From Candidatus Omnitrophota bacterium (GTDB taxonomy: Bacteria; Omnitrophota; Gorgyraeia; JAUYCX01): DNA of 64,000 nt. Under the pieces are notes generated by a model. The model saw nothing but the letters and a program-made list of their open reading frames with translations. It had not been told where the DNA came from and did not search any database. Location: assembly GCA_030692045.1 (NCBI GenBank), contig JAUYCX010000041.1, positions 1-64,000 of the forward strand. Reading direction: 5' to 3'. This document shows positions 26,586 through 33,761 of this stretch, piece after piece. The translations under genes were made by a program, and so were the position numbers. Every line of letters starts with the position of its first letter. Position 1 is the first letter of the stretch.

Positions 26586-26681
26586 TTAATGAGCGCACGA
26601 CTTATGCCTGCCCTATCTGCCCGAATTAAGGTACGTGTCCAAAGAATTCATCATTTCGTGCCCCGGAATTCTATTTTGACA

Positions 26682-27014
26682 CTAAAAATCTTTGCGCGCG
26701 GCAAAAATAAAATGCAAAAAGTATTTTCTTACGGATTCATCACTAGACTGGTACTCATTAGTTCCCAAGAAATAATCTACGAGGGATTCTCTGAGACGAG
26801 CGAGCTCTTTGAGGCGGGCAAAACCCTTGGCGCCTTCCAAAGTTAAATCTATTAATTCCAGGGCGCGTTCAAACGCCTGTTGAGAGTATTCGGCATTGTT
26901 CTTGGCGCGCCAGTTAAGGGCACGCTCTACCTCGCTGCCAATATTTGCCATTTGCTCCAAAAACGGTATCTCTTTCCAACGCCCAGCAGCGAGGCTCTTA
27001 TGCTGATAATTCAT
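26682..27014 (-). CDS. Small helical hypothetical protein, co-transcribed with DUF5674 gene
   Basis: 110 aa; overlaps the upstream gene by 4 nt. Confidence 0.6.
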   Translation of the reverse strand: MNYQHKSLAAGRWKEIPFLEQMANIGSEVERALNWRAKNNAEYSQQAFERALELIDLTLEGAKGFARLKELARLRESLVDYFLGTNEYQSSDESVRKYFLHFIFAARKDF

Positions 27015-27352
27015 CGCTTAATTATTTTCGCAACTATTTCCGTAATTTTTCTTCGTATCTGGTCATCTTCCACGCTGCGGCTTCTATTACCTTGCGATGG
27101 TCGTATATTAATCACAGAGTCAAACTCAATAAATTCATCTGGCTTGGCTTGCGGATAAAGATTGATCCCCCAAAGGTTTCTTTGTTTTGAGCCGTCTTCT
27201 AAAAGCAACGCTTCCAAATCAGAATGCAGCTCGGCATCGAGTGCGATAAGTTCTCTCTCTGTGTCGACGACTGCCTTTACCAAAGCGCCAAACGTATTAG
27301 CAGCTATCTCTTGGAGTTCATTAATTGTCAATGTCTTTGTGATTATCTGCAT
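27011..27352 (-). CDS. DUF5674-family protein
   Basis: VKAVVDTERELIALDAELHSDLEALLLEDGSKQRNLWGINLYP...SVINIRPSQGNRSR. Confidence 0.75.
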   Translation of the reverse strand: MQIITKTLTINELQEIAANTFGALVKAVVDTERELIALDAELHSDLEALLLEDGSKQRNLWGINLYPQAKPDEFIEFDSVINIRPSQGNRSRSVEDDQIRRKITEIVAKIIKR

Positions 27353-27699
27353 CTTAATATCCGGATTGATTATTTCAGAGAGAATTATACCCCAAACAAC
27401 GATATTCTGCAATAATAATTACAGGGGCGATTTCGCTATCTTCAATTCATCCAGCGAAATACTTGTACGAAGCACAAGGTATTAGAAGCGGCAATATTCT
27501 CTTCGGGGACACTTCTGTAGAAACTTAAGTAATTACAACTAGTTATCTGGAAACGGTCCAGGGTTTCGTCCAGGGTTTCGACAGCTGCGAGAAAATGTGG
27601 AACAGATTTTCGAAGCGCTTAGCTGTCGGGAACATCTTTAAAATTTACTTAAAAGGTCCGTGTCCCAGGAATTCTCCTTTTTCTACTCTCTACTCTCTA

Positions 27700-28749
27700 C
27701 TAAAAATCCGACTTCCTTGCCAATCCTATATCAAGCAACTCTTGATTGAGAAACGTGCCTTGTTCAAGCACTGCCTGCGGCTGGTTTTCTCCCTTTAAGC
27801 CTGCCCGCCGAAGTTCTAATGGCGGGTAGAATATATCCGCTAAATATCTATCATATTTATCAGATTTATGCGTTTTGACAATTACAAAGTCAACTTCTTT
27901 TAGCCGAGCTTCGACAAACTCTTTAGCTTCTTGGCCTTTTTGCGTGGTAATTTCTGGAGCGTCAATTCCGCGAAGACGGACTTTCTCTCGTATCCAGCAG
28001 CTAAATCCCAAATCAATATTCAGCCAAATAGTGTCAGCGTCAATAACCTTCTCAACCAGTGCTTTGTAGGTGTAAAGTTCTTTAGGGGCGGCGTCCGAGT
28101 GTTTAAAACTATAGACGCCGCCCTCCTTCACCGATTCAATTATATCTTCTTTTTTCAGCCTCAAGCCTTTAATCTCGGCGTGAATCAACACTTTAAATCC
28201 CAAATCAATGACTAATTTTTCTGCAATGGGATGAATAAATGCCGGCTCTAATATCCGGTAGGTGAACAACCGCGAACGGATGACGTTTAATTTAACTGAA
28301 GAACTTTTCGGTTTTTCTTGCGGCTCTTCAATTTTCAGCCGCTCTAAACGTATTGCCTCTTCTAATCTTCTTGCTGTCCAGTCGCGCTTTAAAGACATTT
28401 TCTCAAAAGCTTCGCGTTTAGATTTATCTTGAATTGTAATAAGGCGTTTATAATGGTCCCAACTCAATTCAGGCTGATCAGCACGAATTGGGTAGGTTCG
28501 GTAAAATTTCAAAGCCCGCCTAAGAGTAGAAACGTCCCTGTCTACATCCTCACCCAAACGCTCTAATAGAAAATGACCGTAATCTGCGCGGTCTTTGTGT
28601 TCAAGCAGGTGTTCGTGGATGAATCTGCCAATTCGCCAATAGCCCTCGGCAGTCCTACGTTTAACAAAAAAATCCAGCTCAGTTAATTCGGTCTGAATTT
28701 TACTGACCAGCAACTTGTAACCATCTGTTTTGGCTAATTCTTTAGGCAT
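27700..28749 (-). CDS. DUF1016-like N-terminal domain fused to SNase-like nuclease
   Basis: N-terminal YWRIGRFIHEHLLEHKDRADYGHFLLERLGEDV; C-terminal KVIDADTIWLNIDLGF...VRLRGIDAPEITTQKGQEAKEFV...KYDRYLADIFY...FLNQELLDIGLA. Confidence 0.8.
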   Translation of the reverse strand: MPKELAKTDGYKLLVSKIQTELTELDFFVKRRTAEGYWRIGRFIHEHLLEHKDRADYGHFLLERLGEDVDRDVSTLRRALKFYRTYPIRADQPELSWDHYKRLITIQDKSKREAFEKMSLKRDWTARRLEEAIRLERLKIEEPQEKPKSSSVKLNVIRSRLFTYRILEPAFIHPIAEKLVIDLGFKVLIHAEIKGLRLKKEDIIESVKEGGVYSFKHSDAAPKELYTYKALVEKVIDADTIWLNIDLGFSCWIREKVRLRGIDAPEITTQKGQEAKEFVEARLKEVDFVIVKTHKSDKYDRYLADIFYPPLELRRAGLKGENQPQAVLEQGTFLNQELLDIGLARKSDF

Positions 28750-31884: not shown

Positions 31885-32334
31885 CTTTACGCCAGTATCT
31901 AATGAGAAAATTTGGGTCGTTTCTATCCCTGTACTTTCAGTACAGGAATTCCGCATTAGCTTTTAAATTGCTTCGATAGATAATCCTGCGAAGCCAAGCG
32001 CGAAAGCCGCTTGGCGAAGCAGGGCAAAAATTCGAAGCGGCTGGTTTTCCAAACTTTGCACTTTAAACTTTATACTTTAAACTAAAAAGGCAACCCTTCG
32101 ACAAGCTCAGGGTAAACCCCCTACTTTTCGAGAGTTGCCTTAAGAAATTTTACTCATTTTATCACCGCTTTACGAGATCACTATTCCTAATTCATCAATT
32201 GCATCTTTTACAACATCATCCCAACCTTCTAAGCCGAATTCCACACCCTTTTGAACCCTTTCTAATTCGTAGATATTTAATTTTCTCTACTAAAACTAAT
32301 CCAAATCAGGTTTGCGATCAAAAAAATCAAAAAC

Positions 32335-33336
32335 TCAAACAACCTGAAATTCTAATTGAAACTTTTCTTGTTTGCGTCTTTCTCCAAAAAAAAGGTCTGT
32401 TTTCTGTGTTTCATCTAATTCTTTTAGTCTTTTTTCTGCTATCTTTACATACTCACGATTTGAATCTATCCCGATATAGTTTTTACCTAGTTTCTTAGCC
32501 GCAACTGCAGTCGTCCCGCTGCCAACAAACGGATCTAAAACTACCGCACCCTTAGAAAAAGCAGAAAGTTTTATTAAATACTCACAAATAGCTAAGGGCT
32601 TAACTGTCTTATGCGTATTATATTCTCCTTTTTCCTTTTTTGTGGGTTTAGGCAAAAGAAAAGTTCTATCAATAAGTTCATTTATACTTTCCACAGTAAA
32701 AACATTGGAAGGATACATATTATTACCGATTTTTACCTCGGTATTAAATAAACCAACGTCATGTTTCAACATATTATTTAAATAGGTTTGATCAACTGGT
32801 TTCTGCGCCATTGCTATTGGTTCGAAACAAGATTTGATTTGCGGAGTTTTCCAACCATTTAATTTTTCTTTAATCTTATTTTTTGCTCGTTGATCAATCT
32901 CCATCTTGTTTATTAAATGGTCTAAACCCATTGCTTTCGCCTGATTTTGTGTATAAAGCCATATGAAGGCATCTCTTATTTCAAAACCAGCATCATCAAT
33001 TGCGCAGGCCATTCTATGATATAGCCTAGGACTTGAAAAAGAAAAGAAAAAGCCACCTGGCTTCAAGGCCCTGAACACTTCTTCGGATATCTCTAAATAC
33101 CAATTATAAAACCTTTTTCCTTGCTCTCTTTCAAATTTCATTCCCGCAGGTAATGATTTTATTACATATTGATTGCTTTGATTAGAAACTTTGCAGTGAT
33201 CCCAATTATTATCTAGCTTATCCAAAAAATAAGGCGGGTCAGTCAAAACTACATCTATGGAATTGCTCTCAATCTTTGGAAACAATTCCAATGCATCCGC
33301 ACACACAATTTTATTAATAAAATCTTTATTCTTCAT
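32335..33336 (-). CDS. Type II DNA methyltransferase (DPPY class, likely N6-adenine)
   Basis: DVVLTDPPYFLDKLDNNWD then DPFVGSGTTAVAAKKLGKNYIGID. Confidence 0.9.
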   Translation of the reverse strand: MKNKDFINKIVCADALELFPKIESNSIDVVLTDPPYFLDKLDNNWDHCKVSNQSNQYVIKSLPAGMKFEREQGKRFYNWYLEISEEVFRALKPGGFFFSFSSPRLYHRMACAIDDAGFEIRDAFIWLYTQNQAKAMGLDHLINKMEIDQRAKNKIKEKLNGWKTPQIKSCFEPIAMAQKPVDQTYLNNMLKHDVGLFNTEVKIGNNMYPSNVFTVESINELIDRTFLLPKPTKKEKGEYNTHKTVKPLAICEYLIKLSAFSKGAVVLDPFVGSGTTAVAAKKLGKNYIGIDSNREYVKIAEKRLKELDETQKTDLFFGERRKQEKFQLEFQVV

Positions 33337-33338
33337 GG

Positions 33339-33761
33339 TTAATTAATTCTGTCTGGTTTCTTACCTTTAAATTCATGAAATAAAATTCTGTAAACTGCTT
33401 TTTTAACCTCCCTATCGCAACTTTTTATTACTTGAGGATTAGCTAACTTTATCACTCGCCCCTTGTCATCATAAATCCATCTATTTCTATCATCCCTATT
33501 GCATTTTTGGCATTGCGGTATTATGTTTCCCGCAACCAAAGGCTTGTTTGGGTCCATATGAGCCTTCTGTAAAATTGTTTTTGTTGCTGGCCAATGGAAA
33601 TGCGGCTTGCCTTCTTGAGAACCACAAGTAGCACATCTAAAATTATATTTTTCCTTTATTTTTCCCCAATCATCAGTATCTATTATTCTATGCCCTTTTT
33701 TAAAAGAAGGATAAGGCTGCTCTAATGGAAGTTTCCGGGGACGCGTACCTATTCTATTTAA
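33339..33761 (-). pseudogene. HNH endonuclease, likely restriction partner of the methyltransferase; 5' end without a canonical start
   Basis: Open frame upstream of the track ORF: TRPRKLPLEQPYPSFKKGHRIIDTDDWGKIKEKYNFRCATCGSQEGKPHFHWPATKTILQKAHMDPNKPLVAGNIIPQCQKCNRDDRNRWIYDDKGR...; no ATG/GTG/TTG before 33557. Confidence 0.7.

Follow-up and report, generated by a model that had tools for sequence, protein, structure and literature searches.

As a rule, RAYT transposases are regarded as domesticated, mostly present in a single copy, and without demonstrated movement. Di Nocera et al. (2013; PMC3733652) described RAYT-like genes that are flanked by terminal inverted repeats (TIRs), many of them with GGGGWSAS, as TIRYTs or TIRtrons and found that some TIR families are also dispersed. 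These elements correspond to subclass 2.1 of Quentin et al. (2018; PMC6006769), a feature of which is a C-terminal helix-turn-helix domain. The tnpA-REP genes have been reported as mostly single-copy and without evidence of mobility (PMC8266576), and therefore multi-copy RAYT elements are unusual.

Here, we analyzed a 64-kb stretch of DNA from an Omnitrophota bacterium (the window), in which six motifs related to GGGGAC lie in an accessory island. Most probably (roughly 0.85), these motifs are solitary TIRs that derive from putatively mobile, RAYT-encoding elements of the TIRYT/TIRtron type.

The island motifs

All six strings that the original prediction had placed in the island were recovered at essentially the positions given, the copy at 30228 ending at 30245 (Table 1). 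The bare hexamer GGGGAC was found 14 times in the window versus 12.75 expected, and was rejected as a signal because it is not enriched over background. The signal lies in strings of 13-20 nt that group into classes, while the hexamer alone is uninformative. The 13-mer GGGGACGGTTCTA occurred in 10 exact copies in the 2.19 Mb assembly, where ~0.07 would be expected for a random 13-mer, and allowing at most one mismatch gave 11 genome matches versus 2 for the reversed control. At an edit distance of at most 3, the class A 18-mer had four matches in the window, one of which (18783, distance 3) falls within an ORF, and the class B 20-mer had two (33735 and 26623); none was seen for either in six simulated windows.

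Table 1. Ends, elements and adjoining genes in the window.
Feature	Position	Strand	Evidence
Solo class B end GGACACGTACCTTAATTC	26623..26640	-	Edit distance 2 to GGGGACACGTACCTTAATTC; six simulated windows gave 0 at ≤3
Possible degenerate class B end TGGGACACGGACC	27655..27667	-	AATTCC context; one mismatch to GGGGACRCGKACC
Solo class A end TAAAGGGGACGGTTCTAATT	28761..28780	-	Exact 13-mer
Degenerate class A end AGGGACGTTCTATTTTTT	30228..30245	+	Edit distance 2 to class A 18-mer
Solo class A end TAAAGGGGACGGTTCTATTTTT	30903..30924	+	Exact match
N4/N6 DNA methyltransferase adjoining truncated HNH gene	32335..33336	-	PF01555 E=8.5e-36; MTase_II
C-terminal half of putative HNH restriction gene, truncated at class B end	33342..33731	-	Thermus homologue, own paralogue
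Solo class B end GGGGACGCGTACCTATTC	33737..33754	+	Exact class B 13-mer; edit distance 3 to 20-mer
Class C palindromic doublet, 44 bp: two ends, no gene	54596..54639	.	Single hairpin, -19.3 kcal/mol (RNA parameters)
Complete class C RAYT element, 729 bp	55349..56077	.	Inverted ends GGGGACATATCACTTAATTA / GGGGACACAATACTTAATTA
Class C RAYT gene, 220 aa	55358..56020	-	PF01797 E=1.1e-13; REP_Tyr_transpos 58.4 bits, under cut-off 80
Possible degenerate class C end bounding Rhs fragment	56339..56351	-	Read from sequence; weak

The individual copies are not equally well preserved. The GGGGAC of GGACACGTACCTTAATTC has an interruption in its leading GG. The copy at 27655 has an edit distance of 5 to the class B 20-mer, for which 2.7 matches are expected per 64 kb, so that it is at chance level by itself; it was retained in class B only on the strength of its AATTCC context, which other class B copies share. 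The class A end at 28761 lies 15 nt upstream of the DUF1016-SNase start and matches 30903-30922 in inverted orientation with 95% identity over 20 nt, while the class A end at 30903 is located 9 nt upstream of the start of a 192-aa ORF. The class B 13-mer of the 33737 copy recurs at C91:454 of the host genome.

Among the island genes, the one at 27700-28749 encodes a fusion of a DUF1016-N nuclease domain with a staphylococcal nuclease domain and matches the candidate defence models PDC-S02. The SecY paralogue at 28787-30205 has a C-terminal DUF2007-like domain and scores 170 bits against a SecY equivalog cut-off of 253.6. The spacers also contain the dispersed repeats AAAATTCGAAGCGG, with three copies in the window (30937, 32027, and 35322), and TTTAATGAGSGCRCRACTTATG, with two (26585 and 30243).

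End classes and their RAYT elements

Class A (TAAA|GGGGACGGTTCTATTT) and class B (AATTCC|GGGGACRCGTACCTTAATT) are both found in the island; class C (AATTCC|GGGGACACAATACTTAATTA) is located near 55 kb. All three classes are inverted ends of small RAYT elements. The elements are ~730-800 bp in size and hold one Y1 transposase gene between inverted ends that combine GGGGAC with a class-specific barcode.

The class A element of the host genome (730 bp, C60:3620-4349) carries one RAYT gene between inverted class A ends. The gene (C60:3630-4301) encodes a PF01797 protein of 223 aa with a REP_Tyr_transpos score of 81.6 bits (cut-off 80). Class A ends were also found at C59, C60 and C117, 90-92% identical to this copy and matching each other at 203/207 and 138/138 positions. 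As these further ends have unrelated flanks, the host genome has at least three class A insertions. The further copies stop at contig ends, as a repeat collapsed in assembly would, so that their interiors are not visible. Two further genomes of the host's class contain class B RAYT elements (G006:C10:65822-66623, 802 bp, and G114:C14). No close class B RAYT was detected in the host assembly, the nearest being the class C RAYT of the window (54%), and the class B solo ends of the host genome may be orphans. The window class C RAYT and the class B RAYTs form one supported clade in the RAYT tree, and HxH at H60/H62 and Y120 are invariant in our RAYT alignment (A1).

These results agree with the original prediction on three points. 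The motifs had been related to RAYTs, and ends of all three classes flank RAYT genes; they had been set apart from the motif near 55-56 kb, which is of class C as opposed to A and B in the island; and another cognate transposase had been proposed, for which the class A RAYT of the host and the class B RAYTs of the two other genomes were found.

The association extends to other genomes. We compared 109 RAYT loci, which came from Omnitrophota, Elusimicrobia, Aminicenantes, Planctomycetes, Armatimonadota, Proteobacteria and sulfate-reducer lineages. Inverted repeats whose score was equalled in no more than 1 of 100 shuffles flanked 85 of them, and 63 of the 85 contain GGGAC. The locus L066 is identical to a contig recorded as Candidatus Omnitrophota, which places the host's class in that phylum. 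The end class follows the RAYT tree: with labels on 49 of 114 loci, i.e., only those with a recognizable class on both sides, eight changes were counted versus a shuffled mean of 17.8, and none of 200 shuffles was as low. As the barcode follows the transposase tree, orphan repeats in metagenomes become assignable to their transposase. Used alone as a query against named genomes, the class A RAYT gave no match, and an alignment query was used afterwards. The closest RAYT relatives in other genomes share class A ends (G011, G045, one Elusimicrobia and one Aminicenantes genome). When the class A 16-mer was searched with at most one mismatch in 118 genomes from the host's class, 115 hits were counted among the matches listed, as opposed to 13 with the reversed control. 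The 115 include about a dozen inverted pairs with a spacing of 15-55 bp, as well as pairs at the distance of an element that surround RAYTs.

Grouped ends were also observed. One genome of the host's class (G104) had 17 class A matches, mainly in inverted pairs 15-40 bp apart, together with one distant RAYT match; these doublets are apparently an expanded non-autonomous family. In the host genome, four GGGGAC-type ends of at least three kinds are clustered within ~210 bp at L176 14904-15114 (C92:40903-41113), and a class C-like and a class B end lie 39 bp apart directly upstream of greA at L178 3774-3825 (C98:8773-8824).

Broken genes and the proposed module boundaries

The class B end at 33737 adjoins a gene of which only the C-terminal half is present. 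The Thermus HNH homologue is 282 aa in size and is matched by the window gene from residue 152 only; Thermus plasmids carry the same HNH and methyltransferase gene pair. The host's own HNH paralogue at C98, 86% identical at the protein level, has kept the N-terminal half and has one in-frame stop. The DNA homology between C98 and the window (81%) ends at window position 33727, 10 bp from GGGGAC, and upstream of this point the identity falls to 30-38% over 50-300 bp, which is background. Comparison with these two independent full-length homologues shows the class B end at 33737 to be a breakpoint that cuts the putative HNH restriction gene. A search for HNH homologues gave none in phages and, among 198 genomes of the class, the host's own paralogue alone. 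This paralogue is part of a second R-M cluster (L206 2335-5998, C98:45334-48997). Its other members are a Vsr-like endonuclease, what appears to be a cytosine methyltransferase, and an incomplete N4/N6 methyltransferase that shares 77% identity with the one in the window.

Other ends lie on incomplete genes as well. At C60:207, the match between an Rhs signal-peptide start and an intact Rhs start stops within ~7 bp of GGGGAC, and at the class C element of the window ~24 codons of the paralogous Rhs cores are absent between the two flanks. An Rhs-like start is, by inspection only, truncated at an end in C35. The end at C60:4349 adjoins the C-terminal part of an IS30-like transposase (weak Pfam support), for which no full-length copy was found, the other copies being cut by contig ends. 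The ends thus coincide with lost DNA at several sites, and the cause of the loss may be the transposase or a later deletion. An orphan Rhs core fragment (56078-56344) was also observed between the class C RAYT element and the possible class C end, adjoining a full 1619-aa Rhs gene.

A mechanism can be proposed on this basis. The Y1 transposase, with its HUH motif and tyrosine, would recognize its own end as single-stranded DNA, cut near the GGGGAC boundary, and move either the whole element or short two-ended doublets. The solo ends of the island would be what is left of inserted elements after later deletion or rearrangement of the interior and the far flank, and for that reason some are located at gene breakpoints, as is seen for 33737 and for the Rhs genes elsewhere. 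The motifs would then be a record of old DNA breaks, not deliberate gene separators, and at least one lies precisely at the cut that halved a restriction gene.

The motifs had been proposed to punctuate the island gene by gene. In a weaker form this holds, since at least one island end, that at 33737, is a breakpoint, but as proposed it is overstated: that motif cuts the HNH/R-M gene instead of separating modules, and no motif lies in the gap from SIR2 to the methyltransferase or in that from the 110-aa ORF to DUF5674. Neither are the ends tied exclusively to accessory modules, as solo ends are also found by core genes such as greA and nrdR/pcnB; other neighbors are pilT/prfB and metF as well as HsdR-like, RelBE-like and Rhs genes, all named from a reading of the ORFs and not from a family search. 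The six island ends face R, R, R, L, L, L, where R means that the element interior would be to the left, and therefore no island module is bounded as a RAYT element is.

It is nevertheless conceivable that the ends are active module boundaries and that RAYT activity mobilizes or shuffles the island genes as cassettes between successive ends. Besides the breakpoint at 33737 and the presence of five clear ends within 7.1 kb, the class A ends at 28776 and 30907 point outward from SecY and the 192-aa ORF, and class A element ends are placed in the same topology around the Rhs segments of C59 and C60. However, an outward orientation is opposite to that of element ends, solo ends occur beside core genes, some module gaps have no end, and the island was picked on account of its motifs. 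We consider such cassette activity quite improbable, and the evidence found does not support a shuffling of island modules by the ends. The outward-facing pairs could be cassette-like or could just contain host DNA between two lost elements. As to the Rhs-bearing segments themselves, C59:208-3553 (L182) and C60:208-3619 (L183) span 3.35-3.41 kb and are flanked by class A RAYT element ends that share one orientation, which suggests direct RAYT copies bracketing Rhs cassettes.

The reading of the motifs as solitary TIRs has a more far-reaching form, which we offer tentatively and regard as rather unlikely. It holds that the GGGGAC-type RAYT elements of the present Omnitrophota host are truly mobile, multi-copy transposons, that their ends cause or capture adjacent deletions, and that solo ends record broken or joined modules (the R-M gene, the Rhs cassettes, and the SecY paralogue). 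If this were true, the outward-facing end pairs around the SecY and Rhs segments would be cassette borders.

Comparison with described repeat systems

REPs, REPtrons and REPINs (GTAG REPs with TnpA-REP) share with the present ends the transposase superfamily, the inverted end doublets, and the solo ends in spacers. Most copies here do lie in spacers and the class C doublet forms a perfect-looking hairpin, as might be seen if the motifs were ordinary GTAG-type REPs with a regulatory or terminator role in RNA. Against this, GTAG is absent from the class A, B and C consensus and the ends carry GGGGAC, single class A and B ends have no obvious stem, an Rfam search of the island gave no match, and the element itself is multi-copy. 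Moreover, GTAG REPs are often present in >100 copies per genome, in contrast to only ~10 here (7-11 genome-wide matches for each of the three classes), and an ordinary REP identity is accordingly very hard to maintain. The resemblance to RAYT REPs originally noted stands for the link to RAYTs, but the motifs are best read as TIRYT-type terminal inverted repeats, not as classical GTAG REPs. Chance matches to a common hexamer, which the background frequency of GGGGAC and the chance-level copy at 27655 might suggest, can be dismissed given 13-20 nt matches far above control in the host genome and 118 relatives; chance is ruled out for 28764, 30907 and 33737 but may yet explain 27655.

CGTC, the tag of the CGTC-tagged REPs (PMC3733652), is present in the reverse complement of class A. 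Those repeats, however, have stems of 8-9 bp and no transposase association, and identity with them was rejected because classes A, B and C flank RAYT genes and thus have cognate transposases. IS200/IS605 elements are likewise small single-gene elements with a Y1 HUH transposase; in contrast to them, true inverted repeats are present on both sides here, and the class A RAYT reaches 28 bits with NF033573 (cut-off 55) and falls in the REP-associated family.

TIRYTs/TIRtrons are the closest match to the solitary TIRs and their elements. As in that system, a RAYT-related Y1 transposase gene, with the HUH motif and catalytic tyrosine, lies between flanking TIRs that start with GGGG, the TIRs are also dispersed as singles, dimers and groups, and class B (GGGGACAC) and class C fit GGGGWSAS. 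In the three RAYTs, no Pfam helix-turn-helix match was obtained at E≤1, and all three have a conserved C-terminal extension. The differences are that class A (GGGGACGG) fits 7 of the 8 consensus positions and, like the GGGGACGC form of class B, misses position 7, that at least three gene-bearing element copies are present in one genome, that ends lie on gene truncations, and that the host does not belong to the phyla that are commonly discussed. This genome, which has three or more closely similar RAYT elements at unrelated sites together with cognate solo ends and ends at breakpoints, provides a concrete test system, in which one can ask whether this RAYT branch still transposes and how target DNA is damaged or reshaped. 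The advance over the described systems is small and consists of the host phylum, the class A barcode, the multi-copy elements, and the ends lying on gene truncations.
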